A stretch of 64,000 nucleotides of DNA from Mycobacterium sp. Root265 (lineage in GTDB: Bacteria; Actinomycetota; Actinomycetes; Mycobacteriales; Mycobacteriaceae): the NCBI RefSeq assembly GCF_001428895.1, contig NZ_LMJA01000031.1, forward strand, positions 680,324 through 744,323, given 5' to 3'. Below the pieces are notes generated by a model. It ran no database searches. It was not told the origin of the DNA and saw only the letters and a program-made list of their open reading frames with translations. Below are positions 28,866-48,644 of the stretch, in pieces. The position numbers and the translations under genes were made by a program. The first letter of the stretch is position 1. Every line of letters starts with the position of its first letter.

Positions 28866-30128
28866 TCAGGTCCGCGCGTACTCCTCAATGTCAGTGCTGA
28901 ACCGCAGCACCTGTTCTGCGCTGAGCGTCGGTCGCGTGCCCCGCACAACGGTCAGGTAGTCCGTGGTGTCGCTATGACAACGCGTTCCGCAGTCCACGCT
29001 GCGCTCAAAGGTCGCTTGCGCGACCGCGCGGGCCACATGGGCGACGTCCGCCGGGGTGTAGTACGGAGTGGCGTCAACCAGAGTACTGATATCGACGTTT
29101 GGATCTTTGACGTAGCGTCGCCACAGCTCGCCGCGGGCGTCGGCGTCAGGTGGCCCGATAGGCAGAACGTAATCGAACCGACCGTGGCGTAGAAACGCGG
29201 AGTCCAGCTCTCGCACGGAGTTTGTGGCACACACCAGCAGTCGGCCGGGGCGATCACGAAATTGAACCAGCCTCTTGAGTAGCTCGTTGACCACTGCAGT
29301 GGCCGCTAGCGACCCTGGTTCACGCTGCGAAGCAATTTCTTCCACCTCGTCGATGAAAGCAACAACATTATCGAGTTCGTTCAACGAGTCGAACGCGTCG
29401 CCCAAAGCTGCCGCCAGCCCGCCCTCACCGCTGGCCAGGCGCGCCGGAAACAGCTCGACGAAAGGCCAGCCGAGCCTGCTGGCGATGGCCCGCACAAAGG
29501 TGGTCTTGCCCGTGCCCGGCGGTCCAAACAGGACGATGGCGTGAGGGGGTGTGACATCGTGTTCAGCGGCCTGCTCTGGCAGTGAGAGGGGAAGAACGAT
29601 CCGCCGGTCTATCAGCCGCTTCTCACCAGCCATACCGGCGATCTGCTGCCACAAGCCGGCCGGGGGGACCACTCCGCCCAACCTGGACAGAATGGCAGCC
29701 GAGCGCGGCGAAATCTGTTCATGCTTTTCGAAGTACGCGATGCCTGCGCGCTGAACGAAACCTGAGTTGACAAACGCCTGGGTGCCTGTCTCGCCGGCCG
29801 GAAGCAACGCCGAGATTCTCCGCACGCCGTGTCCAAGCAACCGGTGTTCCAACGCACTCAAGAGCTCGCTACCGAGTCCCTGGCCACGCCATTGGGGGGC
29901 CAGGGACAGTCGTACGACCCAGGCGTGATCGATCTCCACCCGACTGACGGCCACGCCGATGACCTCCCCAGCTGACACCGCCACGACTGCCGGGTGGCGC
30001 GACTGCAGGCTCGCCACAAGATCAGAGGCCTCGAACAACGGTCTCTCATCTGTCATGGTGGAGTCGGCATCGAGCTTGATCGCCGATTCCAAGTCCTCCG
30101 GAGCGAATTCACGCAGGTGCCAGGTCAC
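28866..30128 (-). CDS. GNAT acetyltransferase-AAA+ ATPase fusion protein
   Basis: A 420-residue two-domain protein. Residues 1-140 are a GNAT N-acetyltransferase with the acetyl-CoA loop PQWRGQGLGSE (79-86). Residues 150-420 are an AAA+ ATPase: Walker A GPPGTGKT (202-209), Walker B VVAFIDE (255-261), sensor-1 Asn303, Arg fingers R314/R317 (RHGRFD) and a helical lid. It is co-directional with and 45 bp after the alcohol dehydrogenase, in the glutamine-synthetase operon. I know of no characterised enzyme with this layout; a role in acetylating and remodelling or activating an enzyme of the cluster is a guess. No frame disruption joins the two halves, so the fusion is real. Confidence 0.82.
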   Translation of the reverse strand: MTWHLREFAPEDLESAIKLDADSTMTDERPLFEASDLVASLQSRHPAVVAVSAGEVIGVAVSRVEIDHAWVVRLSLAPQWRGQGLGSELLSALEHRLLGHGVRRISALLPAGETGTQAFVNSGFVQRAGIAYFEKHEQISPRSAAILSRLGGVVPPAGLWQQIAGMAGEKRLIDRRIVLPLSLPEQAAEHDVTPPHAIVLFGPPGTGKTTFVRAIASRLGWPFVELFPARLASGEGGLAAALGDAFDSLNELDNVVAFIDEVEEIASQREPGSLAATAVVNELLKRLVQFRDRPGRLLVCATNSVRELDSAFLRHGRFDYVLPIGPPDADARGELWRRYVKDPNVDISTLVDATPYYTPADVAHVARAVAQATFERSVDCGTRCHSDTTDYLTVVRGTRPTLSAEQVLRFSTDIEEYART

Positions 30129-30173
30129 TGCTGCGGCCCGCCCGATCCCGCCACCCGGGCCCTGCAGCTAGTC

Positions 30174-31250
30174 TCAAAAAACAATGAGGTCTCGCAGCGC
30201 CCGGCCCTTCTCCATGGCAAGAAAGGCGTCATTGATCCCATCCAAGGTGATACGCGAGCTGACCATCTCCTCCAAAAGCAGCCGTCCATCGAGAAACATT
30301 TCGACGTACTTCGGCATGGCGAGCCGGAAGTTCTGCGACCCCATGTACGAACCCTGAATCCGTCTGTCATCGAGGAGGAGCCGCCCCTGCACCGGGAATG
30401 TCTTCCCCGCCGGCATCAAACCCACAATGGTCGCGGACCCGCCGACGTCCAAACACTCCAGTGCAGTGGTAGCGGTGGCAGGCGAACCGACCGCTTCAAA
30501 GCTGTGGTCGACACCGCCGTCGGTGAGATCGCGGATGGCGGCGGCGACGTCGCCGCAGGCACCGTCCACCACGTCAGTCGCGCCTACAACGATTGCTGTG
30601 TCAAGTTTGTCTGTATTGAGATCCACAGCGATGATGCGTGATGCACCAGACAAACGTGCGCCTTGGATGGCGCTCAAACCGATTCCACCGCAGCCGATCA
30701 CGGCTACAGTCTCGCCTGGACGAACTTGACCTCTGTTCAGCACAGCTCCTAGGCCCGTCGTCACCCCGCAACCGATCAGTGCCGCCAGGTCCAACGGCAT
30801 CTCCTTCGATACGCGGACGGCCGCCGATTCGTGAACAAGGAGCTGCTCGGCGAAGCTCGACACGTTCAGGAACTGGAACACCTCCTCACCATGCTGGCTG
30901 AGCCGGCTCGGGCTGGCCGGCCGCACACTGTGCGCGCCGCTGCACAGATAAGGGCGGCCGGCCAAGCAACGCTGGCACATTCCGCAGGACGCGGCCAGAC
31001 AGGTGATGACGTGATCGCCCGGGCTGAAATTCCTGACGTCCTGCCCGACTTCAACGACGACGCCGGCGGACTCGTGGCCCAGCACTGTTGGGCGCGGAAT
31101 GTCAAAGACGCCTTTAAGGTGGTAGAGGTCGCTGTGACACAAGCCTGCGGCAGCGGTGTCGATCAGGATCTCCTGTGGCCCTACCCGGTCTACGTCCACC
31201 TCTTCGACCTCCAGGAGGTCGGTGCCGCCGCGCAGAATGGCTGCTTTCAT
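30174..31250 (-). CDS. Zinc-dependent alcohol dehydrogenase (MDR superfamily)
   Basis: A 358-residue medium-chain zinc alcohol dehydrogenase. Catalytic Zn ligands are in GLCHSDLYHLKGVF and HESAGVVVE; the structural zinc site is CGMCQRCLAGRPYLC; the NAD fold has VIGCGGIGLSAIQGARLSGA. The ATG at 31250 follows GGGAGAAC. In a gamma-glutamylation route it could oxidise a gamma-glutamyl-amino alcohol, such as gamma-glutamyl-ethanolamide, to the aldehyde used by the aldehyde dehydrogenase. It is between the glutamine-synthetase-like gene and the GNAT-AAA+ gene on the same strand. The oxidised alcohol is inferred, not shown. Confidence 0.9.
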   Translation of the reverse strand: MKAAILRGGTDLLEVEEVDVDRVGPQEILIDTAAAGLCHSDLYHLKGVFDIPRPTVLGHESAGVVVEVGQDVRNFSPGDHVITCLAASCGMCQRCLAGRPYLCSGAHSVRPASPSRLSQHGEEVFQFLNVSSFAEQLLVHESAAVRVSKEMPLDLAALIGCGVTTGLGAVLNRGQVRPGETVAVIGCGGIGLSAIQGARLSGASRIIAVDLNTDKLDTAIVVGATDVVDGACGDVAAAIRDLTDGGVDHSFEAVGSPATATTALECLDVGGSATIVGLMPAGKTFPVQGRLLLDDRRIQGSYMGSQNFRLAMPKYVEMFLDGRLLLEEMVSSRITLDGINDAFLAMEKGRALRDLIVF

Positions 31251-31305
31251 GGTGTTCTCCCTATACCGACGTCGATAGTGTTATCCCTTTGGCGGAGAAT
31301 GCGAC

Positions 31306-32661
31306 TCATCCTCGCTCGAACCCGCGCGCTCGGTCCCAGTCGGTCACTGCGGACTCGTGCGCTTCCACCTGTTTCGCGGCGGCGTTACCGTAGTGGTGCA
31401 CTACTTCCGGTCCGAACGCCTTAGCAGCGGCTTCACTGCTCTGCCAAAGCTGGGCGGCTTCCCGGAGCGAACCGGGCATGCGGCTGCCCCTGGTGTCGTA
31501 GGCGTTACCGGAGACTTCCGGCTCCAGTACGAGTTCGTTCTCGATCCCGTGCAGCCCTCCGGCGATGGTGGCTGCCACCGCCAGGTAGGGGTTGACGTCT
31601 GCGCCAGGTGTGCGGTTCTCCAGCCTCAGACTGCGTCCTTCTCCGAGCACTCTCATCGCGCAGGTGCGGTTGTCGCGCCCCCAGGTGAGTGCGGTCGGTG
31701 CGAATGAACCGTCTCGAAATCGTTTGTAGGAGTTGATGTTGGGAGCCACAGTGATGCCGAACTCACGGGCTGTGGCGAGTTGGCCTGCCAGGAAATGTTC
31801 GAAGGTCTTCGACAGTGACGTGCCGTCCGGGCCTGCGAAGACTGGTGCCCCGTCTTCGCCGATGAGTGAGAGGTGCACGTGGCAGGAGTTTCCGGGCCCG
31901 TCGTCGAACTTGGCCATGAAGGTCAAAGACACGTCGTTGGCGATGGCTATTTCCTTGATCCCATCTTTGTAGATAGCGTGGTTGTCGCAGGTGGTCAATG
32001 CATCGGAGTACTTGAAGCCCAGTTCGAACTGACCGATGTTGCACTCGCCTTTGAGTGCCTCGACGTTCATCCCGGCGCCGCGCATGTTGCGGCGGATCTG
32101 GCGCATCAGCGGCTCCGCTTTGGACGTTCCCGAAATGGTGTAGTCGATGTTGTGGTAGCTGGCGCGCTGAAGGTCGTGGTAGTGCTTCTCGTGGGCACTT
32201 CGGTAGGTCTCGTCGAAGAGCAAGAACTCAAGTTCGGTGGCTACCAGCGCACGCCAGCCGCGGGCGTCGAGTCGGGCCAGCTGTTGGCGCAGGATCTCCC
32301 GCGGGGACTGCACGACAGGACTTCCGTCTTCCCATCGTGCGTCAGCCAACACCATCGCGGTTCCCGGCATCCAGGGCACGCGTCGCAGCGTGTCGAGATC
32401 GGGGATCAAGGTGAAGTCGTTGAGTCCCGTTGCCCATCCAGCGATCTCGAACCCGTCAACGATTTCCATCTCGATATCGCGGGTGATCAGATAGGAGCAC
32501 GCATTGACCCCCGATCCCACGATGTCGTCGAGAAAGTGTGTGACATCAAGCCGTTTACCGACAAGTCTCCCGTGCATGTCGGGCATGGCCACCACAACTG
32601 TGTCGATCGAATCCTCTGCAACCGCGTCACGCAGATCCTCGATACTTAGAAACGCATCCAT
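31306..32661 (-). CDS. Glutamine-synthetase-family gamma-glutamyl-amine ligase (PuuA / GlnA3-like)
   Basis: A 451-residue glutamine-synthetase-fold enzyme. Visible motifs: VVATEL-like metal site in WRALVATELEFLLFD, GPGNSCHVHLSL (metal and ATP), NSYKRFRDGSFAPTALTWGRDNRTCAMRV and ENRTPGADVNPYLAVAATI. It is the shorter form without a GlnA adenylylation-site region I could find. Next to a PuuD-like hydrolase, aldehyde dehydrogenases and an aminotransferase, it most likely ligates glutamate to an amine rather than to ammonia. The ATG at 32661 follows GGAAGGAA. A promoter motif is at 32815-32830. Confidence 0.88.
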   Translation of the reverse strand: MDAFLSIEDLRDAVAEDSIDTVVVAMPDMHGRLVGKRLDVTHFLDDIVGSGVNACSYLITRDIEMEIVDGFEIAGWATGLNDFTLIPDLDTLRRVPWMPGTAMVLADARWEDGSPVVQSPREILRQQLARLDARGWRALVATELEFLLFDETYRSAHEKHYHDLQRASYHNIDYTISGTSKAEPLMRQIRRNMRGAGMNVEALKGECNIGQFELGFKYSDALTTCDNHAIYKDGIKEIAIANDVSLTFMAKFDDGPGNSCHVHLSLIGEDGAPVFAGPDGTSLSKTFEHFLAGQLATAREFGITVAPNINSYKRFRDGSFAPTALTWGRDNRTCAMRVLGEGRSLRLENRTPGADVNPYLAVAATIAGGLHGIENELVLEPEVSGNAYDTRGSRMPGSLREAAQLWQSSEAAAKAFGPEVVHHYGNAAAKQVEAHESAVTDWDRARGFERG

Positions 32662-32814
32662 GTCTTGTTCCTTCCAATCGTTTTCACCCGTGGTCCCAGC
32701 AGGTGAGGTCACTCAAAGCCGACCCGAATCTGTTGCTGGTGTGCGGTCCCCCTCGGCGATCGCACGGCCGACGCCGGAGAAGCGACTCTGCCGCTGTTCC
32801 ACGTTTTGGTCACA

Positions 32815-32830
32815 CCAAATAATAGAATGT
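32815..32830. promoter_or_regulatory. CCAAATAATAGAATGT motif, second copy
   Basis: Second copy of the 16-mer seen at 25589-25604, in the 244-bp gap between the divergent glutamine-synthetase-like gene (start 32661) and the GntR gene. The minus-strand reading gives TATTAT as a -10 candidate, the plus strand gives TAGAAT facing GntR. Repetition at both divergent promoters of this cluster is the main evidence. Confidence 0.5.
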
Positions 32831-32905
32831 GACGCTGATTACCGCAAATGGTTGAGACAAATGCTGGCCGGAGGTATCATCACTGAACATGGCGAAGGGC
32901 TGCGT

Positions 32906-33631
32906 ATGACCGAACTCCGGGCACTGGCCGACGATGCGGGCAGCGTCGACGACGGATCCGGCCGCAATCCCTTCGAAGAGTCTCTGGGACAACTGGTTTC
33001 ACGGATTCGCAGCGGTGACTTGCCGATGGGTTCGCGTCTGCCACCTGAGCGCGAACTCAGCAACGAGATGCAGGTCGGCCGTAGCACACTCCGAGCCGTC
33101 ATCAGAGCGCTTCAGCAAGCGGGCTATATCGAGACCCGGCGGGGACGCACCGGCGGTAGCACAGTTATCTGGGAGCCCGACGGCGACGAACGGGGACAGC
33201 GCAGGCTCAGTGACCAGATGAAAGAACGGCTCCTGGACGCCTTGCGTTTCCGATCAGTGCTTGAACCCGGCGCCGCGGCGTTGGCCGCGGAACGCCATCT
33301 CACCGAAGCCGAACTCCAGGGACTGGACCACCGGCTCGAGGCTGCCACGTGCGGAGGTCCCGACTTCAGGCTCGCCGACTCCGAACTACATACCTACATC
33401 GCAGAGCTGAGCAACTGCCGGGCACTCGCTGATCAAGTAGCCAACATCCAGCTGATCCTAAATGAGAACCTCCTGCAGGTGGTGCCATTCTTTGGGCCGG
33501 CACTCGAGCACTCTCACGAACAACACGCTCAGATCGTCGCAGCGATACGCGCCAGCGATCGCAATCTTGCCCGGCAGCTGATGGAGACGCACGTAAACGC
33601 TACCTCGGAGTTGCTCAGCGGCTTCCTCTGA
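32906..33631 (+). CDS. GntR-family (FadR/FCD-type) transcriptional regulator
   Basis: A 241-residue FCD-type GntR regulator. The N-terminal winged helix is LVSRIRSGDLPMGSRLPPERELSNEMQVGRSTLRAVIRALQQAGYI (read in part); the C-terminal all-helical FCD domain includes RFRSVLEPGAAALAAERHL and HEQHAQIVAAIRASD. The ATG at 32906 is favoured because GAAGGGC lies ahead of it; an in-frame ATG at 32861 is possible. It is divergent from the glutamine-synthetase-like operon and probably represses it; the effector may be the amine or an intermediate. Confidence 0.82.
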   Translation: MTELRALADDAGSVDDGSGRNPFEESLGQLVSRIRSGDLPMGSRLPPERELSNEMQVGRSTLRAVIRALQQAGYIETRRGRTGGSTVIWEPDGDERGQRRLSDQMKERLLDALRFRSVLEPGAAALAAERHLTEAELQGLDHRLEAATCGGPDFRLADSELHTYIAELSNCRALADQVANIQLILNENLLQVVPFFGPALEHSHEQHAQIVAAIRASDRNLARQLMETHVNATSELLSGFL

Positions 33632-34036: not shown

Positions 34037-34320
34037 GGCCGTCCAAGGGCGCCTCGACGCTGGCCTCACTGTGAGGGCGATCCGTTCGACGCCACTCGCG
34101 CACACGTGGTTGTCGACGACACGCGGAGGCGTCGAATACGCGACGTATGGGGCCGGGGCGGCCATCGGGTCCCGACCAGCAAAGGGATTTTGGTGGTGCC
34201 AGCCCCGCGCGCGGGCGCTCTCACAGGTCGACCGCACCCGTCCTGAGGCTACATCGGCCGGGGCTAACGGGGGCACAGCCATATCGCTATTCATACAGTC
34301 GGCCAATTACCATGTGTTTC

Positions 34321-35349
34321 ATGGGCACTCTCGATGACGTGGCGCGCGCGGCAGGGGTCTCGAAGTCAGTGGCCTCTCGAGCTCTGACCGGCGATACCCG
34401 GGCGCGTATGAGCGAAGCTACCCGTGCGCGGATTCTGGCGGCTGCCGCCGAGCTCGACTATGTGCCCAATGCCCGCGCTCGTGCTCTCCGCCAGTCTCGC
34501 TCCGGCGCAATCGGTCTGATCGTTCCTGACGTCAACAACGCGGTGTTTGCCGACATGTTGGCGGGTGTGCAGCAGGCGACCGCCCGACACGGTACCGACG
34601 TGCTGCTCGGGCAGGTGGATCCACCGCCCGAAGGTGCCCAACAACTGTCCCGCTTGGTGCGGGAAGGCCGGGTCGATGGACTGCTGATTCAGCGGCGGGA
34701 GGATTTCGACGACACCATGCTGGCCGCGGTTCTGCACTCGGGCGTGCCAGCGATCACCGTCAACTCCCGGCTACCGGGCCGGGTCGGATCGGTGATCCTT
34801 GAGGATGAGCGCGGCGCGGCGCTGGCCGCCCGACACCTGATCGAGTTGGGTCACAGGCAGATCGCGTTCATCTCTGGCACGCGCGCGCACGACACCGCGC
34901 GCCGACGCAAGAACGGGTATCTGCGCGCGCTCACCGAGGCCGGCCTCGCAGCCGAACCGACCTGGGTGATCGATGCCGGGTGGGAATCCGATGCCGGCGC
35001 ACAGGCGCTCGGCACGCTGTATCGCGATGGCGGGCTGGGAAAACCTGGAGGCCCCACGGCCGTCGTGGTCGCCAGCGTCAACGCTGCCGTGGGGGCCCTG
35101 TTCGCCGCGCTGCGGCTCGGCGTGCGGGTGCCAGAGGAGCTGTCGATCGTCGGGATCAACACGACGTGGGTCTCCAACACGGTGTATCCGGCCGTTACTA
35201 CTGTCAAGCTGCCGCTGCACCGGCTCGGCGAAGTAGCCGCCACCATGCTGCTAGATCACTTGGGGGGAGCCGAGCTCACGGATGTGGTGGTCGAGGATCC
35301 TGCACCCGAACTGGTGGCGAAGGAGACCACGGCCACGCCGAGTTCGTGA
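34321..35349 (+). CDS. LacI-family transcriptional regulator
   Basis: A 342-residue LacI regulator. The N-terminal HTH is TLDDVARAAGVSKSVASRALTGDTRARMSEATRARIL (read in part), followed by the hinge helix VPNARARALRQSRSG and a periplasmic-binding-like core with GLIVPDVNNAVFADML and AALAARHLIELGHRQIAFISG. LacI operators are palindromes with a central CG, which matches the four 16-mers at 37379, 37413, 38974 and 39007, so it is the best candidate to bind them. Start at 34321 is chosen for the normal HTH position; an ATG at 34312 is three codons earlier in frame. Confidence 0.88.
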   Translation: MGTLDDVARAAGVSKSVASRALTGDTRARMSEATRARILAAAAELDYVPNARARALRQSRSGAIGLIVPDVNNAVFADMLAGVQQATARHGTDVLLGQVDPPPEGAQQLSRLVREGRVDGLLIQRREDFDDTMLAAVLHSGVPAITVNSRLPGRVGSVILEDERGAALAARHLIELGHRQIAFISGTRAHDTARRRKNGYLRALTEAGLAAEPTWVIDAGWESDAGAQALGTLYRDGGLGKPGGPTAVVVASVNAAVGALFAALRLGVRVPEELSIVGINTTWVSNTVYPAVTTVKLPLHRLGEVAATMLLDHLGGAELTDVVVEDPAPELVAKETTATPSS

Positions 35350-35361
35350 TCTCGAGCGCGC

Positions 35362-36141
35362 CTAGCGCCTGAAGTGGGCCGGACGCTTCTCCACGAAGGC
35401 AGCCACCCCTTCGACTCCGTCGGCGGAGGTGAACAGCTCCATCAGCGTGGCCCGTTCGTCACTGTAGGCCAGCGCCCGTTCGGCGTTCGACACCAAATCT
35501 TTGGTGGCAGCCAACGCCGAGGCTGAGGATCCGGCCAGCAACGTAGCCAACTCATTGGCACGGTGCCGGCTGGTGCCCGCCGGGACCACCTCGTTCACCA
35601 AGCCCAAGGCGTGTGCCTCGGCAACTGGCAGTCGCTGCCCAAGCATGATGAGCTGCTTGGCTTTTCGAGCACCCACTTGTGCGGTCAGTCGCTGCGTGCC
35701 GCCCCAGCCCGGGATCAGCCCCAGGGACACCTCGGGAAGCCCGAGTTCGGCCGTGTCACCCGCCACCACGATGTCGGCGGCCATCGCGACTTCGAATCCA
35801 CCGCCGAGGGCCATCCCTTCGATCGCCGCGATGACGGGGACGGGAACTGTGGCGATGGTTTCGACGAGGACTCCCGCCGCGCGGGTGAGTTCGCCGATCT
35901 CGCCCAGATCGCCACGCCCGTACACCGAGATATCTGCTCCCGCACAGAAGAAGGACCCACCGCTGAGCACGATCACCCGTGTGCCGGCCGGGCGCGCGTC
36001 GATCGTCCTGGTCAGCGATCGGACCATATCGAGGTCGAAGGCGTTACGTTTTCTCGGACGGTTCAACACCACGTGCAGCACGCCGTTGGTGGCCTCGGGG
36101 TCGACGCTCACCGATTCCCCCATCGTCAATGTCTCGGTCAT
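35362..36141 (-). CDS. Enoyl-CoA hydratase/isomerase
   Basis: A 259-residue crotonase-fold enzyme. The oxyanion hole is formed by the SFFCAGADISVYG and EGMALGGGFEVAMAADIVVAG segments; the usual catalytic acidic pair region LPEVSLGLIPGWGGTQRLT has Glu in the first and Ile/Pro in the second position, so the exact reaction (hydration or isomerisation) is unclear. It overlaps the stop of the CoA-transferase gene by 1 bp, in one operon. It would act on the CoA ester produced by that transferase. Confidence 0.87.
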   Translation of the reverse strand: MTETLTMGESVSVDPEATNGVLHVVLNRPRKRNAFDLDMVRSLTRTIDARPAGTRVIVLSGGSFFCAGADISVYGRGDLGEIGELTRAAGVLVETIATVPVPVIAAIEGMALGGGFEVAMAADIVVAGDTAELGLPEVSLGLIPGWGGTQRLTAQVGARKAKQLIMLGQRLPVAEAHALGLVNEVVPAGTSRHRANELATLLAGSSASALAATKDLVSNAERALAYSDERATLMELFTSADGVEGVAAFVEKRPAHFRR

Positions 36142-37313
36142 CAGTTACCTACCTTTGCTTGAAGTCGATCGATGTCTTCTGTGTCGTAGCCCAATTCAGT
36201 CAGGACAGTCCGGTTGGAGCTGCCCAGTTCGGGCGGCAGATTGCGCACCCCCGGGCGCAGTCCGTCGTAGAGCACCGGGTGCCCGAGGAGCTTGACGGCA
36301 CCAGCGGTCGGATGGTCGATCTCGATCACCGACTTGTTGTGCAGCACCTGAGGGTCCTCGACGATGTCGGCGTAGGTGTTCACCGGCGCGAACCAGACCT
36401 TGGCCCTTACGAACACCGCACTCCATTCGTCAGTGGTTCGTTGCCCCATGTGCTTGGCCACCCGTTCGTTGACGTCCTCGCGCCGTTGGTAGGACGAGTC
36501 TTCCCCGACACTGAGGAACCAGTCGTCCTCGAAGACGGCAGCGAGCACAGCCAACGCATTGAGCGACAGGGTGAGGTGGCCGTCGGCGGTGGCGAAAACA
36601 CCGTACGGCGCTTTGTAATACGGCGACGACACGCCGCTGTTGCTGCGGTGCCCGGTGTAACCATTCAGGAAGTAGGACAGCGGCTCGATCTGGAGATCGA
36701 GCGCGGCGCTGAGCAGATTGCTCTCTACCCGAGCGCCCCGTCCGGTGCGTTCCCTGCCATGCAGCGCCGCCAGGATCCCGAACGCCCCCAACACCGCGCC
36801 ATGTTGGTCGACGATCGAAGCGCCGACCGGCGTTGGAGGGCCATCGGCGACTCCCGTGGCTGCGGCGATTCCTGACATAGACTGCAGCAGCACGTCCTGC
36901 CCCGGTCGGTCCTTGTATGGTCCGTCGCTGCCGTAGCCCGACAGCGAGCAGTACACCAGCCGGGAGTTGCGGTGGCGCAGGCGTTCCCAGCCCAGTGCGA
37001 GCCGCTCCATCACGCCGGGGCGGAAACTCTCGATCAGTACGTCTGCATCGTCGAGCAGTCGGAGGACGACATCCACCCACTCGGGGTCCTTGAGATCGAC
37101 TACCAGGCTGCTGACGTTCCGATTGCCCAGTAGGAAGAAAACGCTCTCCCCGTTGAGGTAGGCGTCGGGGCCCGACCACGACCTTTCGAACGCACCGGCC
37201 GGTGGCTCGACCTTCACGACCTGCGCACCCAGGTCTGCGAGCATCTGCGTGGCTGATGGGCCTTGCAAAAAATGCGTGAAGCTAACGACGCGAACACCGT
37301 CGAGCATGGCCAT
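36141..37313 (-). CDS. CaiB/BaiF family III CoA-transferase
   Basis: A 390-residue family III CoA-transferase, intact. MLDGVRVVSFTHFLQGPSATQMLADLGAQVVKVE (read in part) is the typical N terminus; RPGQDVLLQSMSGIAAATG contains the catalytic Asp, and the loop with GYGSDGPYKDR is also typical. The ATG at 37313 follows AAGGAGGCACCG. It would transfer CoA to a carboxylate made inside the cluster, feeding the enoyl-CoA hydratase encoded just downstream. It is divergent from the permease gene, with two operator palindromes between. Confidence 0.9.
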   Translation of the reverse strand: MAMLDGVRVVSFTHFLQGPSATQMLADLGAQVVKVEPPAGAFERSWSGPDAYLNGESVFFLLGNRNVSSLVVDLKDPEWVDVVLRLLDDADVLIESFRPGVMERLALGWERLRHRNSRLVYCSLSGYGSDGPYKDRPGQDVLLQSMSGIAAATGVADGPPTPVGASIVDQHGAVLGAFGILAALHGRERTGRGARVESNLLSAALDLQIEPLSYFLNGYTGHRSNSGVSSPYYKAPYGVFATADGHLTLSLNALAVLAAVFEDDWFLSVGEDSSYQRREDVNERVAKHMGQRTTDEWSAVFVRAKVWFAPVNTYADIVEDPQVLHNKSVIEIDHPTAGAVKLLGHPVLYDGLRPGVRNLPPELGSSNRTVLTELGYDTEDIDRLQAKVGN

Positions 37314-37378
37314 CGGTGCCTCCTTCGATCGAATCGGCGGGGTGGGCGCACTTCGCCACGCACCCATTGAAACAACAT

Positions 37379-37394
37379 GAACAATCGATTGTCC
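37379..37394. promoter_or_regulatory. Operator palindrome GAACAATCGATTGTCC (copy 1)
   Basis: Palindrome with a central CG and one mismatch at the last half-site (GTCC instead of GTTC). Lies 66 bp upstream of the CoA-transferase ATG and 129 bp upstream of the permease GTG. Probably a LacI-family site. Confidence 0.7.
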
Positions 37395-37412
37395 ATATCT
37401 TCCGCAAAATTA

Positions 37413-37428
37413 GCGCAATCGGTTGTTC
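37413..37428. promoter_or_regulatory. Operator palindrome GCGCAATCGGTTGTTC (copy 2)
   Basis: Same family of 16-mers, 34 bp (about three helical turns) after copy 1. A TGTGCTTCACTA block follows at 37442-37453, conserved with the one after copy 4. Confidence 0.7.
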
Positions 37429-37522
37429 ACAGGTCTTTCCTTGTGCTTCACTATGGCTGCCGTGATCTGGGACACAGGCCGCGGCCACACCCATCAACCA
37501 TGCGGACCGACAAGGAGTCACC

Positions 37523-38899
37523 GTGGTCAACTCATCGCCCCAGCAATCCCCCGCCACCAGCCCGCACACCGCTGACCCGCCCGCAAGCAAGCTGCGGAAA
37601 GTGGTGGCGGCGTCTATGGCCGGCACCGTCATCGAGTGGTACGAGTTCCTGCTGTACTCGGCGGCCTCGGCCCTCGTCTTCGGCACGTTGTTCTTCCCGA
37701 AAACCGACAACGCACTCGACGGCGTCATCAACGCACTTCTCATCTACGCCGTCGGCTTCCTCGCCCGGCCCCTCGGCGGTTTGGTCTTCGGCTACTTCGG
37801 TGACCGCGTAGGCCGCAAGAAGCTGCTCCAGGTGAGCCTGCTCCTGGTCGGCGCATCGACGTTCGCGATCGGCTGCATCCCCGGCTACGCCAGTATCGGG
37901 ATGGCCGCGCCCCTGCTCCTGGTCCTGATGCGCTTCATCCAAGGCGTCGGCGTCGGCGGCGAATGGGGCGGCGCAGTGCTACTGGTCGCCGAACATAGTC
38001 CGAACAAGAGTCGGGCATTCTGGACCAGCTGGCCGCAGGCCGCCCTTCCGCTCGGCAATTTTGTTGCGACACTTGTCCTCACCGGCCTGTCGTTCGCCAT
38101 GACCGAGGACGCCTTCCTGGCCTACGGCTGGCGTATAGCATTCTGGTTGTCGGCCGTGATCGTGATCGTCGGTTACTACATCCGGACACGCGTGGACGAG
38201 GCGCCACTGTTTCTGGAAGCCCGCGAGGCGGCCGAGAAGGCCAATGAGGCAACACCCTCTGCGCTGCAGGTCATCCGGGCCTACCCGCGCCAGGTGCTGA
38301 TCGCCATGGGCGCCCGGGTCGCCGAGAACATCATGTACCAGATGGTGGTCACGTTCTCGATCACGTACCTGGCGTTCACGATCGGAGCCACCACCACCGA
38401 GATCCTCGTCCTCATCCTCGGCGCGCACGCCATCCACTTCGTCGTGGTGCCGTTCTACGGCCGGCTCGCCGACACCTGGGGCCGAAAACCAGTTTTTCTG
38501 CTGGGATCCGTGCTCGCCACCGGCTGGGGATTCGTCGGATTCCCGTTGCTGTCCACCGGCAACGACTTTCTGATCTTCCTCGGCATCACGCTCGGCCTGC
38601 TGATTCACGGCCTGATGTACGCGCCACAACCGGCACTGATGGCCGAGATGTTCCCCACTCGAATGCGCTACACCGGCGTCTCCCTGGGTTACCAAGTCAC
38701 CTCGATTTTCGCCGGATCGCTGGCTCCCTACATCAGCACCTCGCTGCTGCGTTCGCATGGATCGTGGGTGCCGATCGCCTGCTACCTCGCGGTGGCGGCA
38801 GTCATCTCGACCGTGGCGGTGAGTTTCCTGAAAGAGACCAAGGGCATCGACCTGGCCGGCATCGGCACCACCGCCCCGACATCCCGGCCAATCGCATGA
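37523..38899 (+). CDS. MFS transporter of the MHS type (metabolite:H+ symporter)
   Basis: A 458-residue major-facilitator protein of the MHS branch with 12 hydrophobic segments. The start GTG at 37523 follows AAGGAGTCACC. Typical motifs are AGTVIEWYEFLLYSAASALVFG near the N terminus, GYFGDRVGRKKLLQ in loop 2-3, and RFIQGVGVGGEWGGAVLLVAEH. MHS members carry carboxylates, sugars acids or proline-betaine-like compounds with protons. Two operator palindromes precede it, so it is probably controlled by the LacI regulator with the CoA-transferase. Confidence 0.88.
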   Translation: MVNSSPQQSPATSPHTADPPASKLRKVVAASMAGTVIEWYEFLLYSAASALVFGTLFFPKTDNALDGVINALLIYAVGFLARPLGGLVFGYFGDRVGRKKLLQVSLLLVGASTFAIGCIPGYASIGMAAPLLLVLMRFIQGVGVGGEWGGAVLLVAEHSPNKSRAFWTSWPQAALPLGNFVATLVLTGLSFAMTEDAFLAYGWRIAFWLSAVIVIVGYYIRTRVDEAPLFLEAREAAEKANEATPSALQVIRAYPRQVLIAMGARVAENIMYQMVVTFSITYLAFTIGATTTEILVLILGAHAIHFVVVPFYGRLADTWGRKPVFLLGSVLATGWGFVGFPLLSTGNDFLIFLGITLGLLIHGLMYAPQPALMAEMFPTRMRYTGVSLGYQVTSIFAGSLAPYISTSLLRSHGSWVPIACYLAVAAVISTVAVSFLKETKGIDLAGIGTTAPTSRPIA

Positions 38900-38973
38900 C
38901 GCCCGCGGTCAGGGCGAACCACGTCGCCGGCCGACAGAAGGACCGGAAGAACGAAGCTGGCGCGCCACCCGTA

Positions 38974-38989
38974 GAGCAATCGGTTGTTC
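38974..38989. promoter_or_regulatory. Operator palindrome GAGCAATCGGTTGTTC (copy 3)
   Basis: Nearly identical to copies 1, 2 and 4; central CG. Lies 225 bp upstream of the ABC ATPase start. Confidence 0.7.
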
Positions 38990-39006
38990 AGGTCGACGCC
39001 AATCTT

Positions 39007-39022
39007 GCCCAATCGGTTGCTC
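39007..39022. promoter_or_regulatory. Operator palindrome GCCCAATCGGTTGCTC (copy 4)
   Basis: Thirty-three bp after copy 3, a spacing close to the 34 bp of copies 1-2. The following TGTGCTTCGCTA (39035-39046) sits 28 bp from the site start, compared with 29 bp at copy 2, which suggests a shared promoter layout. Confidence 0.7.
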
Positions 39023-39213
39023 AACGTCTGAGCGTGTGCTTCGCTAGGTGAACCACCGAGCGTGGACGCTCGATTTTCTATCCTGCCCCCGCATTGCCGC
39101 GAGGCCCGCACCAGCCAACTCAAGACATTCGAGAATGGGACCAGTCACGACATGAGTGATATATCAGTTATCGATCGGTTTGCCCACCGCTTCCAATTAC
39201 AGGGTCTGCGGCG

Positions 39214-39993
39214 ATGACCCGCAGCCTGGAAGTCGTCGGGATCGACAAGGAATACGGCACGTCCCACGGCGTCACCCGCGTACTGCGGGGGCTGACTCTG
39301 CACGCGGACCGCGGCGAGTTCGTCTCCATCGTCGGCCCGAGCGGGTGCGGCAAGTCGACTCTGTTCAACATCATCACCGGGCTGGTGACACCCACCTCTG
39401 GGTCGATCCGGGTGAACGGGGCCGACGTCACCGGCACCACCTCGCAACACATCGGCTACGTCCTGCAGAAAGATCTCCTGTTCCCATGGCGGACGGTTCT
39501 GGAGAACGTCATCCTCGGGCTGGAAGTGCGCGGCACCGGCAAGAAGGAAGCACGCGAACGCGCCCGACAACTGTTCGCGGCCTACAAGCTGGAGGGCTAC
39601 GAGGACAACTACCCCGCCGATCTGTCTGGGGGGATGCGGCAGCGGGCCGCACTCATGCGCACCATGGTGACTGATCCGGACATCATCTTGATGGACGAAG
39701 CCTACAAGGCACTCGACTATCCCCTCAAAATCGCACTGGAGGGCGAGCTGCTCGAAACCGCCAGAGCCACAGGCAAAACCGTTGTCGCTGTCACGCACGA
39801 TATCGAGGAGGCGGTCACGATGTCGGACCGTGTGTACATCCTCAAAGCCCACCCCGGAGAGATCGTCGATGAACTCGACGTCGATCTCGGCACCACGAGC
39901 ACCGATATCAACGAGCGGCGACTGGCGCCACGGTTCAACGAGTTCTACGAAAAGGTCTGGCGCGGAATCGGACAGTCGGCGGACGCGGCATGA
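39214..39993 (+). CDS. ABC transporter ATP-binding protein (NitT/TauT type)
   Basis: A 259-residue ATPase of the nitrate/sulfonate/taurine importer family. Walker A GPSGCGKST (41-49), signature LSGGMRQR (137-144), Walker B with D161-E162 and an H-loop VAVTHDIEEAV. After the Walker B the usual DEPFGALD reads DEAYKALD, an uncommon change. The ATG at 39214 is the first gene of a five-gene run: ATPase, permease, binding protein, amidase, acetamidase/formamidase. The substrate is probably an anionic or amide compound. Confidence 0.9.
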   Translation: MTRSLEVVGIDKEYGTSHGVTRVLRGLTLHADRGEFVSIVGPSGCGKSTLFNIITGLVTPTSGSIRVNGADVTGTTSQHIGYVLQKDLLFPWRTVLENVILGLEVRGTGKKEARERARQLFAAYKLEGYEDNYPADLSGGMRQRAALMRTMVTDPDIILMDEAYKALDYPLKIALEGELLETARATGKTVVAVTHDIEEAVTMSDRVYILKAHPGEIVDELDVDLGTTSTDINERRLAPRFNEFYEKVWRGIGQSADAA

Positions 39994-40036: not shown

Positions 40037-40870
40037 ATGACCACTGTACTGACCGAGCCGTCGACCGCTCCCACACGGCCGATCCGGCGGCGGACGGCGA
40101 CCGCGTCGCCGCGCAGCCGACGGATCGTCCTGCACACCATGCAGGTCCTCATTGTCGTAACAGCGTTGTCGGCGTGGGAATTCGGTGCCCGCAGCGGTGC
40201 GATCAGCTCATTTCTTTTTGGCAGCCCCAGCGCGGTGTGGAACGTACTGCAGACCCGCGCGATCTCCGGTCAGCTGTGGTCCGACATCGGCGTCACCAGC
40301 ACGGAGGTCATCCTCGGGTTCTTGATCGGCGCCGTCGGTGGATCTGTGCTCGGCCTGCTGCTGTGGTACTCGCAGTTCGTCGCGGATCTGACGTCGCCGT
40401 TCATCGCCGCCATTGGTTCAATCCCCGTCCTGGCGGTCGCACCGTTGACCATCATCTGGTTCGGGACCGAGATGACATCCAAGGTGGTGATCGTCGCGTT
40501 CTCGTGTGTGGTCGTGTCATTGACCACCTCCTACCGCGGCGCCCGACGCACCGATCCTGACCTGATCAACCTGATGAAGTCATTCGGGGCCTCCCGCTCC
40601 CAGATCTTCCGCAAACTCGTTGTGCCGTCAGCGATGACGTGGGTGGTATCGGGTTTGAAGCTCAACATCGGCTTCGCGCTGGTCGGCGCCATCGTTGGCG
40701 AATACATCAGTTCCGACGCGGGCGTGGGCCACATGATCCTGCTCGGCAGCTCCAATTTCACCATCAGTCTCGTCATCGCCGGCATCGCCATCGTCATGGT
40801 CATGGTGCTGGTCTTCAACCTCCTCGTCAGCGCTCTGGAGCGCTTCCTCGGTCATTGGGAAAGGTCATGA
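40037..40870 (+). CDS. ABC transporter permease (NitT/TauT type)
   Basis: A 277-residue integral membrane protein of the BPD-transport-1 type. About six hydrophobic segments; the cytoplasmic EAA loop is seen as YRGARRTDPDLINLMKSFGASRSQIFRKLVVPSAM (read in part). The ATG at 40037 follows AGGAGGACAG. The last codons overlap the start of the binding protein gene. Confidence 0.9.
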   Translation: MTTVLTEPSTAPTRPIRRRTATASPRSRRIVLHTMQVLIVVTALSAWEFGARSGAISSFLFGSPSAVWNVLQTRAISGQLWSDIGVTSTEVILGFLIGAVGGSVLGLLLWYSQFVADLTSPFIAAIGSIPVLAVAPLTIIWFGTEMTSKVVIVAFSCVVVSLTTSYRGARRTDPDLINLMKSFGASRSQIFRKLVVPSAMTWVVSGLKLNIGFALVGAIVGEYISSDAGVGHMILLGSSNFTISLVIAGIAIVMVMVLVFNLLVSALERFLGHWERS

Positions 40871-41901
40871 TCATGCGAAAATTCCTCCGAAAGCTGGCTG
40901 TTGCCGTCACATCGGCAACGGTTCTGCTCACCACTGCCTGCAGCAGTCAACCGACTCAGTCCGCGGACGGCACCACCACAGTCCGGGTTAGCCAAGCGTT
41001 CCAGTCCCTGCTCTACCTGCCGCTCTATGTGGCCCAGGAGAACGGCTACTTCCAGGAACAGGGGGTGACCGTCGAGATCGCCACCGGGGGCGGTGGCACC
41101 CAGTCGTGGACTGCAGTCCTGGGCGGGTCCGCCGACTTCTCCATACAGGACCCGGTATTCGTGCCGAAGTCACACGAAAACGGCGGCCCCGGCGTGGTTG
41201 TGGCCGCCATCCAAAATGCTCCGTCGGTGTTCGCCATCGGCCGCGGCGGTGCCGGCGCCAACCTGAACGACCCGTCGGTGTTCGAAGGCAAGAAGGTGGT
41301 GGTGAGTCCGGAGCCCGATACCAGTTGGGCTTTCATGAAGTACCTGATCGACCAGAAAGGTCTGAAGGACGTCACGATGGTCAACGTCGCGCTCGGCAGT
41401 GAACTCGCCGCCGTGGCAGGTGGGCAAGCCGACCTGGCATTGTCCTTCGAGCCGACCGTCAGCCAAGCTGTGGTGGGCCAGGGTCTTGAGGTTGTCTATT
41501 CCTTCCCCGCCAACCCGGACTGGTACCCCTTCGCCTTTTCCAGCCTCACCACAACCGAGAAATACCTGCAAGAGAGCCCCGAATCCGCTCAAGGTGTGGT
41601 CACCGCGATCGCCAAGGCCTCGAAGTTCATCTACGCCGACCCCGTGGCCACCACCGACATCGCCGCAAAGTACTTCCCCGATCTGCCCCGCGAGGTCGTC
41701 GCAGCCGCCGTCGAACGGGAGATCGACGCCAAGGGTTACGCAGAGGACATCACAGTGACCAAGGAGTCCTGGGACCGCAACATGGAAATCTCGTTGTTTA
41801 CCAAGAACATCGCGGCCTATCCCTCGGATGCCACGTCATATGAGAACAACGTCAACACCGAACTGGCCACCCGGGCCCGCGCAACACTTGAGGCGGGCTG
41901 A
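40867..41901 (+). CDS. ABC substrate-binding lipoprotein (NMT1/THI5-like, NitT/TauT type)
   Basis: A 344-residue substrate-binding protein. The N terminus has Arg/Lys residues, a hydrophobic core and a lipobox TTAC, so it is lipid-anchored. The mature part begins VRVSQAFQSLLYLPLYVAQENGYFQEQGVTVEIATGGGG (read in part), the classic NMT1-like opening. The ATG at 40867 overlaps the permease stop as ATGA. Ligand is probably the compound hydrolysed by the adjacent amidases, but this is inference. Confidence 0.9.
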   Translation: MIMRKFLRKLAVAVTSATVLLTTACSSQPTQSADGTTTVRVSQAFQSLLYLPLYVAQENGYFQEQGVTVEIATGGGGTQSWTAVLGGSADFSIQDPVFVPKSHENGGPGVVVAAIQNAPSVFAIGRGGAGANLNDPSVFEGKKVVVSPEPDTSWAFMKYLIDQKGLKDVTMVNVALGSELAAVAGGQADLALSFEPTVSQAVVGQGLEVVYSFPANPDWYPFAFSSLTTTEKYLQESPESAQGVVTAIAKASKFIYADPVATTDIAAKYFPDLPREVVAAAVEREIDAKGYAEDITVTKESWDRNMEISLFTKNIAAYPSDATSYENNVNTELATRARATLEAG

Positions 41902-41903
41902 GC

Positions 41904-43433
41904 ATGACCGTGCATCTTCCAGAAGCCGTAGATCTCGAACAGACCTCTACGACCTACGGTCTCGGCCTGTCCACAAGCAAGTTGGCTGAGTTCGCCCCGC
42001 ACGTACAAGACACGCTGGCCTCCTGGGATGTCGTCGCCGAATTGCATAGGGAGATCGCGCCACCCACCGTCACACGTGCCTGGGCGCAGCCGGCACACAA
42101 CCCCTTGGGCGCCTGGTATGTCACGTGCAACATCACTTCGGCAGGCACGGGCCCGTTGGCCGGCCGGACAGTGGGCATCAAGGACAACATCGCGGTGGCC
42201 GGCGTGCCGATGATGAATGGCTCAGCGTTGGTCGAAGGCTACGTCCCGATTCAGGACGCCACCGTGGTCACCCGACTACTGGCCGCCGGCGCCACCATCA
42301 CCGGCAAGACCGTCTGCGAGGACCTCTGCTTCTCGGGAGCCTCGCACACCGCAGCCACAGGCCCGGTGCGCAACCCCTGGGACCACACCCGCACCTCCGG
42401 CGGATCCTCCAGCGGCAGTGCCGCTCTGGTCGCCTCCGGGGCCGTCGACCTGGCCATCGGCGGTGATCAGGGCGGATCGGTGCGGCTTCCTGCCGCATTC
42501 ACCGGGATCGTAGGACACAAGCCGACACACGGGCTGGTCCCCTACACCGGCGCTTTCCCCATCGAGCAGTCCCTCGACCACCTCGGTCCGATGACCCGCA
42601 CCGTCGCCGATGCGGCACTGGTTCTCGACGTGATCGCCGGACCCGACGGCCTGGATCCCCGGCAGCGTATCGACGGTTCAGAAGCGACGTTCACCGACGA
42701 GCTGACCCAGCCCACAGCCGGGCTGCGGGTGGGTGTCCTCACCGAGGGCTTCGGGCATCCGGAGTCGGTACCCGGTGTCGACGCTGCCGTCCGTGGTGCC
42801 ATCGATGTCCTGCGCACCGAAGGTCTTCTGTGCGAGGAGGTCTCGGTACCCTGGCACCGCCACGGCAAGCAGATCTGGGACGTGATCGCCGTCGAGGGCG
42901 GCACCACCCAGATGGTCGACGGCAACGCCTACGGCAGGAACTGGCAGGGTTGGTACGACCCAGCGCTGATCGAGCACTACGGCAGCCGACGCCGCGCGGA
43001 TGGCTCCTCCTTCCCGGACACCGTGAAGCTCGTCTTGCTGGCTGGTCGCCACACCCTCGATCGGCATCACGGCGTGCACTATGCGATGGCACGCAACCTC
43101 GTTCCGCACTTGCGCGCCGCCTACGACGAGGCCCTGTCGCGCTTCGATGTCCTCGTCATGCCCACCACTCCGATCCTGGCCAGCCCGATACCGGGCGGCG
43201 ACGCGCCACTGGAGGAGTACCTGGCGCGCGCATTGGAGATGATGGCCAACACCGCCGCGTTCGACGTGACGGGCCATCCTGCGTGCAGCGTACCGGCCGG
43301 CCTGGTCGACGGACTGCCGGTCGGGATGATGATCGTGGGCCGCCACCTCGACGATGCCACGGTGCTGCGGGTTGCACACACCTTCGAGCAGGCCCGCGGG
43401 GGCTTTCCGTTCGCAGCGGATGGGGCATCATGA
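41904..43433 (+). CDS. Amidase (amidase-signature family)
   Basis: A 509-residue amidase-signature enzyme with the Ser-cisSer-Lys triad: Lys93 (GIKDNIAVAG), the Gly/Ser-rich GGSSSGSAAL (165-173) and Ser192 (GGSVRLPAAFTG). It hydrolyses an amide to the acid and ammonia. The ATG at 41904 follows the binding protein stop by 2 bp, so it belongs to the importer operon. Next to it is an acetamidase/formamidase; the two could take different amide bonds of one compound. Confidence 0.9.
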   Translation: MTVHLPEAVDLEQTSTTYGLGLSTSKLAEFAPHVQDTLASWDVVAELHREIAPPTVTRAWAQPAHNPLGAWYVTCNITSAGTGPLAGRTVGIKDNIAVAGVPMMNGSALVEGYVPIQDATVVTRLLAAGATITGKTVCEDLCFSGASHTAATGPVRNPWDHTRTSGGSSSGSAALVASGAVDLAIGGDQGGSVRLPAAFTGIVGHKPTHGLVPYTGAFPIEQSLDHLGPMTRTVADAALVLDVIAGPDGLDPRQRIDGSEATFTDELTQPTAGLRVGVLTEGFGHPESVPGVDAAVRGAIDVLRTEGLLCEEVSVPWHRHGKQIWDVIAVEGGTTQMVDGNAYGRNWQGWYDPALIEHYGSRRRADGSSFPDTVKLVLLAGRHTLDRHHGVHYAMARNLVPHLRAAYDEALSRFDVLVMPTTPILASPIPGGDAPLEEYLARALEMMANTAAFDVTGHPACSVPAGLVDGLPVGMMIVGRHLDDATVLRVAHTFEQARGGFPFAADGAS

Positions 43434-44539
43434 GCCACGTGCACGAGATCGAACTGGACCTCACCAAGTCACTGGTGGACGACCCGCGAGCAGGCCACAA
43501 CCGCTGGCATCCAGACATCCCGGCCGTGTTGCGGTGCGCGCCGGGCGACACCGTGGCGTTGCGTGCTCGCGACGGATACGACGGCCAGATCAACCGGGAT
43601 TCAACGGCCGCGGATGTACTGGCCATGGATGCCGCCCGGATCCACCCGCTGACCGGACCCGTCTACGTCGAGGGCGCCGAACCGGGTGACCTTCTGGTGG
43701 TCGACGTTTTATCGGTGGAGACCGGCGACTTCGGCGCCACCCTGAACATTCCCGGATTCGGATTCCTGCGTGACGAATTCACCGAACCGCACGTCGTGCG
43801 CTGGGAGATCGCCGACGGGTTTGCCACCTCAGCGGACCTTCCGGGCGTACGGTTGCCGGGGGCCCCCTTCATGGGGGTGATGGGGGTAGCACCGTCGCGG
43901 GAGTTGTTCGACCGCAGCAGGTCCGCCGAAGAACGGGTCGCCCGGGAGGGCGGACTGGTCGAACTGCCGAATCCCACGTCATCGGTGCCACCGGACCTCC
44001 CGGGGGACCCGGGGCGGCGCACGATCTCCCCCACCGAAGCCGGCGGCAACATCGACATCAAACACCTCACTGCAGGTAGCCGGGTGTACCTGCCCGTCTG
44101 GGTTGCGGGCGCCTTGTTCTCCGTCGGTGACGGGCACTTCGCGCAGGGTGACGGCGAATCCTGCGGTGCCGCGGTGGAAACCACCACAAGGGTGGTGCTG
44201 CGATTCGACCTGCGTAAGCGGGCAGCGACGTCGGGCGGCGTGCGTTATCTGCGCTTCGAGCGCCTTACCGCCGGACCGCCGGAGGTGGCCGCGCGGCCAC
44301 ACTTCGCGGTGACCGGTGTGCCGGTAGACGACGACGGCCGGATCCACCCGGAGAATCTCAACCTGGCTACACGAAACGCACTGCGCCTGATGGTCGATCA
44401 TCTGGCCGATGAACGCGGTTTCACCCGTCAGCAGGCGTACGCGCTGTGCAGCGTGGCCGTCGACCTGCGTATCAGCCAGATCGTCGACGTGCCCAACGTG
44501 TTGGTGTCAGCCATGGTGCCCACCGACATCTTCGGATGA
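43430..44539 (+). CDS. Acetamidase/formamidase family protein
   Basis: A 369-residue FmdA/AmdA-like amidase. Typical motifs include the Zn-related VEGAEPGDLLVVDVLSV and LTAGSRVYLPVWVAGALFSVGDGHFAQGDGESCGAAVETT (read in part). The C terminus has QAYALCSVAVDLRISQIVD. The ATG at 43430 overlaps the amidase stop. Two remnants of the same family lie at 47591-47779 and 54464-54565, so it has duplicated in this region. Confidence 0.87.
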   Translation: MSHVHEIELDLTKSLVDDPRAGHNRWHPDIPAVLRCAPGDTVALRARDGYDGQINRDSTAADVLAMDAARIHPLTGPVYVEGAEPGDLLVVDVLSVETGDFGATLNIPGFGFLRDEFTEPHVVRWEIADGFATSADLPGVRLPGAPFMGVMGVAPSRELFDRSRSAEERVAREGGLVELPNPTSSVPPDLPGDPGRRTISPTEAGGNIDIKHLTAGSRVYLPVWVAGALFSVGDGHFAQGDGESCGAAVETTTRVVLRFDLRKRAATSGGVRYLRFERLTAGPPEVAARPHFAVTGVPVDDDGRIHPENLNLATRNALRLMVDHLADERGFTRQQAYALCSVAVDLRISQIVDVPNVLVSAMVPTDIFG

Positions 44540-47861: not shown

Positions 47862-48473
47862 TCACTGCCGATGTTCGGGCAGCCGCGATCGGATGCCGGC
47901 AAGTACAACGTCGACGATTCTTTCCGCGTCGGCAGGGGTGAACATGCGCATGCCCCGGTTGACAATGAGGTGCACTGGGCCGGAAATCATCTCGCCCAGG
48001 AAAGAGCTATCGACCGGGGGGAGCTCGCCCCGGTCGACCGCGGTGTCCACTCGGTGTTGCATGGCGGCCACCCGGGCGTCGAGCACTCGGGTCAGCGCGC
48101 GCAGGGTGGCATCGTGACGAGTGGGTTGGATGGCTCTTTCGAGGGTGCGTCCAAATGGCGTTTCAAGGCCGGCAGCAAGGGCCACCAGAAAATCCACCAA
48201 GTCTCGGCGTATGTCGCCGGTGTCTGCAATCGACGCGAGGCCTTCGGCATAACGCAACAACGCCTCGGCGACCAACTCTTCGCGATCAGGCCAGTTGCGG
48301 TAAACGCTGGCCTTGTGTACGCCGGCTGCTGCGGCGACATCCTCGTACCGGAACGCGGCGATGCCATCACGTGCCACGAGTTCGGCGGTGGCGGCGAGGA
48401 TTTGCGCCTTGACCCGCGCATTACGGCCGCCTGGGCGCCGCGATGGCGGACGGTCGGTAGTCCCGTTCCCCAT
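47862..48473 (-). CDS. TetR-family transcriptional regulator
   Basis: A 203-residue TetR/AcrR-type regulator. The HTH is VKAQILAATAELVARDGIAAFRYEDVAAAAGVHKASVYRNWPDREEL (read in part); the C-terminal domain is all helical. The ATG at 48473 lies inside a 12-bp inverted repeat (48471-48529), described separately. It is divergent from the FAD monooxygenase gene at 48645 and probably represses it. Confidence 0.85.
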   Translation of the reverse strand: MGNGTTDRPPSRRPGGRNARVKAQILAATAELVARDGIAAFRYEDVAAAAGVHKASVYRNWPDREELVAEALLRYAEGLASIADTGDIRRDLVDFLVALAAGLETPFGRTLERAIQPTRHDATLRALTRVLDARVAAMQHRVDTAVDRGELPPVDSSFLGEMISGPVHLIVNRGMRMFTPADAERIVDVVLAGIRSRLPEHRQ

Positions 48474-48529
48474 CGCCACCCTCACCTCCTGCCTCGGCGA
48501 CGATTCTTGCCAAGTGGAGGGTGGCGATG
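48471..48529 (-). promoter_or_regulatory. 12-bp perfect inverted repeat over the TetR start codon
   Basis: CATCGCCACCCT (48471-48482) faces AGGGTGGCGATG (48518-48529). On the minus-strand mRNA the right part pairs with the left part, which carries the ATG; the Shine-Dalgarno-like AGGAGGTG is in the loop. This could form a hairpin that hides the start codon, or be an operator for the TetR itself. Confidence 0.5.
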
Positions 48530-48644
48530 CAACCCGGATGCATATACGCTCACTAACGCGACTATATTTCGCTTTAAGTAAGGCGGCCGCAACCGACGGC
48601 CGTCCCATCCGTCACCACCATCCCCACGGATCCATGGAGCGCTG

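Follow-up and report, generated by a model that had tools for sequence, protein, structure and literature searches.

Four palindromic sites in a 64,000-nucleotide stretch of the genome of Mycobacterium sp. Root265 (contig NZ_LMJA01000031.1, positions 680,324 to 744,323; hereafter the window, in whose coordinates features are given) lie in two pairs, one between the genes for a family III CoA-transferase and an MHS-type symporter, the other upstream of an operon for an ABC (ATP-binding cassette) transporter, an amidase and a formamidase. We read these sites as two operator pairs of a LacI-family repressor predicted from the gene at 34321-35349 (here lacI), a reading to which we attach a probability of roughly 0.87. 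The gene would be transcribed from its own operator-free promoter as a leaderless message, and the repressor would be made constitutively. LacI, probably as dimers, would bind at the two sites of each pair, which are separated by about three helical turns, probably in a cooperative manner. With site 2 occupied, the -35 element of the symporter transcript would be blocked; site 4 would act in this way on the ABC-amidase-formamidase operon, and site 1, on the opposite strand, on an operon for the CoA-transferase and an enoyl-CoA hydratase. The repressor would come off on binding a small effector, for which an amide or organic acid that the encoded proteins handle is the likeliest candidate, and all three transcripts would then be released.

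Probable operator pairs and their distribution among genomes

The sites are GAACAATCGATTGTCC (operator 1, 37379-37394), GCGCAATCGGTTGTTC (operator 2, 37413-37428), GAGCAATCGGTTGTTC (operator 3, 38974-38989) and GCCCAATCGGTTGCTC (operator 4, 39007-39022), and the pairs are spaced 34 and 33 bp, as a first-pass annotation of this DNA had reported. Its description of the four as near-identical 16-bp palindromes fails for three of them – only the site at 37379 is near-perfect – and what stands is a common core, CAATCGRTTG. The core of sites 2 to 4 is CAATCGGTTG, in which one pair of positions is asymmetric, and the three outer positions at either end are variable. A shared downstream element, also part of that description, is present: TGTGCTTCACTA begins 29 bp from the start of site 2 and TGTGCTTCGCTA 28 bp from the start of site 4.

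A critical issue is whether such sites could be chance similarities without regulatory function. The core taken alone is compatible with this: with up to one mismatch it is not enriched within the window (9 matches against 7.55 expected; 42 of 100 shuffles reach 9), and it is unremarkable in the genome, since its exact form occurs at 13 places, four of them in the window, where about 21 are expected from the first-order composition of the window. The 16-mer consensus, with up to three mismatches, gives 12 strand matches in the 64-kb window against 4.16 expected, a number equalled in one of 100 shuffles. In the 6.67-Mb genome GAGCAATCGGTTGTTC with up to one mismatch is found at two places, both at the locus studied; with up to three mismatches, the distance at which two of the four window sites themselves stand from it, it has 63 strand matches, and the reversed pattern has 28. 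Chance would place two cores 18-30 bp from each other about 0.0009 times in a genome, and the two such pairs found are both at this locus. Phylogenetic conservation is stronger evidence than these statistics: the intergenic position, the spacing and the flanking elements are conserved in seven genomes. Together with the paired-pattern scan, the geometry of 13 pairs and the distribution of CAATCGRTTGYYC set out below, this leaves chance with a negligible probability.

Six single cores lie elsewhere in the genome, besides those of the window and of contig C22 (discussed below); five of them (on C12, C26, C27 and, twice, C28) fall within open reading frames (ORFs) of at least 100 aa, and the sixth is on C9 (L080). 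Candidates for additional targets – five places with two mismatches to GAGCAATCGGTTGTTC (L003-L007) and one with three (L018) – were set aside as lying within ORFs of at least 120 aa, overlap with an ORF being a weak criterion in GC-rich DNA.

The sites and the regulator gene occur together. In a sample of 397 genomes of the genus, our own included, close orthologues of the LacI-type protein (at least 78% identity) are present in seven, with Mycolicibacterium sp. P9-64, Mycolicibacterium sp. P9-22 and M. vaccae among the carriers; the paired pattern is likewise present in seven, against none for the reversed control. Six genomes hold both a close orthologue and the exact paired pattern, while in the seventh orthologue genome (G299) the sites of one pair are 23 bp apart and a core of the other pair is inverted. 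Operator pairs are thereby present in all seven orthologue genomes, as against a paired pattern in one of the 390 others. In that one (G179) the pair precedes, by about 170 bp, the gene for a LacI homologue with 35% identity to ours. The first-pass annotation had proposed a search of the genome and of related mycobacteria for the motif, taking frequent occurrence as a sign against a regulon. The asymmetric form CAATCGRTTGYYC turned out to be closely tied to the genes of the proposed regulon: in the seven orthologue genomes 27 of its 29 strand-hits are at these genes, the two exceptions end in GCCC, and the reversed control gives two hits. Among 301 genomes of the family the LacI orthologue was found in our own genome only (E ≤ 1e-60), and among 198 relatives of G386 in two, both already known (E ≤ 1e-90).

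Moreover, the pairs follow the target genes where these are rearranged. In M. vaccae, where the locus lacks an MHS gene, the CoA-transferase and ABC operons are divergent, with one pair between them. The lacI locus of G345 has no ABC-amidase genes, fmdA lies about 80 bp past the MHS gene, and there is one pair; the ABC operon of this genome, about 770 kb from the lacI locus, has a pair of its own, 32 bp apart, in which the upstream site has one core mismatch. Three more distant ABC operons (in G027, on contig 50 of G386 and in G099; ATPases 64-65% identical) showed no lacI match and no exact core in 17 kb. As a separate observation, the relocated G345 operon has, besides its operator pair, a 27-residue lacI-like fragment upstream (L105 11086-11166 and 10896 for the two together); this suggests that the operon once had its own copy of the regulator and is now controlled in trans.

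The pairs could instead serve another regulator. Genes for an FCD-GntR regulator (32504-33631) and a TetR regulator (47862-48608, 3.3 kb past fmdA) are both near the locus, the TetR gene is beside it in G077 and G299 too, and an unlinked factor is hard to exclude from sequence. Against this, the FCD-GntR gene has no match at any of the six orthologous loci within about 7-10 kb upstream of lacI (E ≤ 1e-20; E ≤ 1e-10 without a spurious N-terminus), and the TetR gene is missing at four of the six (P9-64, P9-22, G345 and M. vaccae) within about 12-15 kb past fmdA, both searches covering the lacI loci of those genomes. The only regulator gene in the shared block is lacI; palindromes with a central CG are the norm for LacI-family operators, and the same core lies near LacI homologues at 6 of 13 distant loci in the genus. 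We consequently give another regulator little credence. The proposal of the first-pass annotation that a single LacI regulon ties together the hydratase, CoA-transferase, MHS permease, ABC importer and amidases has gained from the co-occurrence of lacI and pairs, from the way the pairs follow the target genes, from the lack of conservation of the other nearby regulators and from the core at the distant LacI loci.

Pair geometry and putative promoters

Thirteen pairs over seven genomes were available for comparison, the core being widened to CAA[TC]CG[AGT]TT[GC] for counting. All 26 sites have CG in the middle, though the widened core demands it, and most of the palindromes are imperfect. That central-CG palindromes are typical of LacI-family operators, as the first-pass annotation held, agrees with a survey of the family, cited here from part of its text, in which even palindromes with a central CG are the norm (PMC4052901). 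Spacing is 32, 33 or 34 bp in 12 of the 13 pairs and 23 bp in one, the latter about one helical turn less than 34 bp. Distances between paired LacI-family sites peak at 22 and 32 bp in the same part of the survey, where they are interpreted as cooperative binding of two dimers (PMC4052901); the spacings here are near these peaks, with the proviso that the distance convention of the survey may differ.

Each downstream site contains a hexamer TTGNNN – TTGTTC, TTGCTC, TTGTTT or TTGTTA – at -35 distance, and TGNTTCRCT follows it by 17-18 bp in 13 of 13 pairs. The best reading of the shared element TGTGCTTCRCTA is as the -10 of a putative promoter that has its -35 within the downstream operator. 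For the symporter the candidate -35 is TTGTTC (37423-37428), inside operator 2, and the putative extended -10 is TTCACT (37447-37452, plus strand), preceded by TGC and 18 bp away; for the ABC-amidase operon they are TTGCTC (39017-39022), inside operator 4, and TTCGCT (39040-39045, plus strand), again preceded by TGC and 17 bp away. We considered whether GTGNTTCRCT might be the site of another factor. A GTG-N3-CAC symmetry is present at pair 1 and missing at pair 2, and the -10 reading is therefore preferred.

A reverse promoter appears to be built into the upstream site. Operator 1, which is conserved in the orthologues, includes together with the next base TGGACA on the minus strand (37390-37395), and 18 bp from this hexamer lies TTCAAT (37366-37371, minus strand), the putative -10 of the CoA-transferase promoter. 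TTGTCCA in the upstream site (TGGACA on the other strand), N18 and then TTSAAT or TCTAAT are found in all seven divergent arrangements and in none of the six non-divergent ones. A reverse -35 TGGACA would account for the CC with which site 1 ends. We infer these promoters from conservation and spacing.

Whether the protein represses or activates turns on where the sites sit. Activation, with the downstream operator as an activator site at -35, would accord with the weakness of the putative -10 elements and with the fixed operator-to-element distance of 17-18 bp; some promoters are indeed activated by IpsA, a LacI-type regulator of Corynebacteria and Mycobacteria (PMC3899939, also cited from part of its text). 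However, according to that source IpsA-activated genes have their sites upstream of -35, whereas sites overlapping -35/-10 mark repressed genes. Here the putative -35 lies inside the operator, as at the IpsA-repressed genes, and repression is preferred for this reason; activation we regard as unlikely.

The LacI-type protein and its specificity

The predicted regulator (34321-35349, plus strand, 342 aa) has a LacI helix-turn-helix domain (PF00356, 3.4e-15, residues 3-50) and an effector domain (Peripla_BP_3, PF13377, 5e-35; PF00532, 2.9e-28). Its hinge sequence, ARALRQSRSG, has a Leu at the position taken by the Leu of ARGL in CcpA and of ARSL in PurR; at this point of the hinge the family conserves a hydrophobic residue, most often Leu, that is inserted into the operator at its central CG (PMC3899939). 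As to the C-terminal tetramerisation helix of E. coli LacI, which the family does not require, the protein ends 15-25 residues beyond its alignments with CcpA and PurR, and it is therefore probably a dimer. A solved LacI-family effector domain, 3kke, spans residues 50-341 of the protein (E = 3e-137) and looks orthologous. The domain is presumably from M. smegmatis. In the literature searched, in which subscription journals were barely covered, we found no function, operator or ligand for it.

The gene itself appears to stand outside the control of the sites. TACCAT, a putative -10 of the form TANNNT (34308-34313, plus strand), ends 7 nt before the lacI ATG, and a TANNNT is equally placed in 7 of 7 orthologues, which suggests that the lacI message is leaderless. 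Autoregulation was considered and rejected: in the window and at six orthologous loci the exact core is confined to the operators, with TANNNT instead before the lacI ATG. Given an operator-free promoter of its own, lacI is probably expressed constitutively.

A second LacI gene in the same genome, 34% identical and encoded on contig C22, has three CAATCGATTG sites nearby (gene and sites within L103 7534-12346), and it is conceivable that this paralogue binds the window sites. Yet its sites differ in their outer bases (mostly CTG versus GAA in the window): the outermost base is G in 8 of 8 half-sites of the window, whereas all 6 half-sites on C22 have C or T there. Over the 13 pairs G is outermost in 50 of 52 half-sites, the exceptions being in P9-22 and G299. 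The two regulons are probably insulated from each other, to judge from these half-sites, and binding of the window sites by the paralogue has, in our estimate, a very small chance of being the explanation.

Several points weigh against the window sites being operators of the lacI product. The core CAATCGRTTG is by itself not rare, and it is shared with the C22 sites. The core had to be widened before all 13 pairs could be counted, and the upstream site is degenerate in pair 2 of G077 and in the relocated operon of G345. Genetic linkage joins lacI to the operators and targets, and their co-occurrence by itself does not say which protein binds; since the orthologous loci come from related genomes, the counts are not independent events. 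Finally, the proposed -10 hexamers, those of sites 1 and 4 among them, lack ANNNT, a motif that 79% of the start sites of M. smegmatis have in the part of the source consulted, where no -35 consensus was found for that species (PMC6448022); for both reasons details of the promoter reading may be mistaken.

Other LacI homologues in the genus are accompanied by TGGCAATCGATTGCCA-like or CTGCAATC-type sites. At the 13 distant LacI loci the exact core is present within 11-18 kb in six and absent in seven. The recognition helix reads SRAL at all six core-bearing loci (L066, L072, L073, L074, L075 and L079) and SRVL or SRLL at the seven without the core; a rule linking helix to operator is possible, though it was drawn post hoc and several of the loci are close relatives.

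Probable target genes and known systems

Between lacI and the first pair lie, on the minus strand, a gene of the enoyl-CoA hydratase/isomerase family (35362-36141; Pfam ECH_1, 1.6e-52) and that for the CoA-transferase (36141-37313; CoA_transf_3, 7.7e-99 over 36141-37310, its start codon read from the sequence). On the plus strand follow the MHS-type metabolite/H+ symporter (37523-38899; NCBIfam TIGR00883, 2e-113, under its cut-off), an ABC transporter ATPase (39214-39993; Pfam ABC_tran, 3.8e-34), an ABC permease (40037-40870; BPD_transp_1, 2.8e-25), an NMT1/THI5-like substrate-binding protein (40873-41901; NMT1, 3e-26), an amidase-signature amidase (41904-43433) and a member of the acetamidase/formamidase family (43430-44539; FmdA_AmdA, 3.7e-109). 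The amidase scores 746 bits against NCBIfam PRK07235 (cut-off 545) and resembles its closest solved chain, 3a1k, across nearly its full length (1.7e-184). NCBIfam matches for the CoA-transferase, hydratase, symporter, formamidase and LacI-type protein are all under the curated cut-offs, and these assignments hold at family level. For the effector, an amide or the corresponding acid suggests itself, because the amidase is near 3a1k, the last gene matches a solved formamidase, and no sugar gene was recognised among the target genes.

Local regulons under a LacI-family protein and tandem operators are a known kind; what is unusual here is the apparently non-carbohydrate target set. Local regulons in the survey, such as those of RafR and ScrR with their double sites, are alike in having an even palindrome with a central CG, two sites per promoter and a regulator near its targets (PMC4052901). 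Unlike them, the window regulon would control amidases, an NMT1-type ABC importer, an MHS symporter, a CoA-transferase and a hydratase. In the part of the survey consulted, carbohydrate genes are controlled by 176 of 182 pathway-assigned groups, most of the others controlling nucleoside genes, and effectors are carbohydrates in 103 of 107 effector-assigned groups; the strings 'mycobacter' and 'amide' are absent from its main text (PMC4052901). IpsA, compared here by its description, also has a central-CG palindromic operator, with two sites at the ino1 promoter. It differs in controlling inositol synthesis and putative cell-wall genes, in activating ino1 and in responding to myo-inositol (PMC3899939). 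We found no description of the window regulator in the literature searched, with the same thin coverage of subscription journals.

We see even odds that this LacI group reaches beyond sugars and nucleosides. It would sense an amide, a carboxylic acid or its CoA-linked product, would place import by the ABC transporter and the H+ symporter, deamidation by the two amidases and CoA activation and hydration in one regulon, and would use phase-locked pairs to serve two back-to-back promoters. The locus yields a specific and testable proposal of regulator, operators and targets for a LacI group whose effector domain has been solved. It also suggests what kind of substrate might be handled by a gene cluster so far annotated by family alone. 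An amide- or acid-responsive member, if true, would widen the range of LacI-family effectors and might serve as a biosensor part.

Two minor features of the surroundings deserve mention. Upstream of lacI (28866-33631) are genes for a GNAT/AAA ATPase fusion, an alcohol dehydrogenase, a glutamine-synthetase-family protein and the FCD-GntR regulator; the alcohol dehydrogenase and glutamine-synthetase-family genes, like the regulator, were sought at the six orthologous loci and gave no match.

Ahead of the ABC ATPase is a short leader ORF of 21 codons (39152-39217, plus strand; MSDISVIDRFA...), whose TGA overlaps the ATPase start as ATGA. Frame and 4-base overlap are kept in six of six loci with a determined ATPase start, the leaders being 19, 21 or 26 codons long; the ORF possibly provides translational coupling or encodes a regulatory leader peptide. 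The relocated operon of G345 has a leader start similar to that of the 39152-39217 ORF, the ATPase start there being unsettled.

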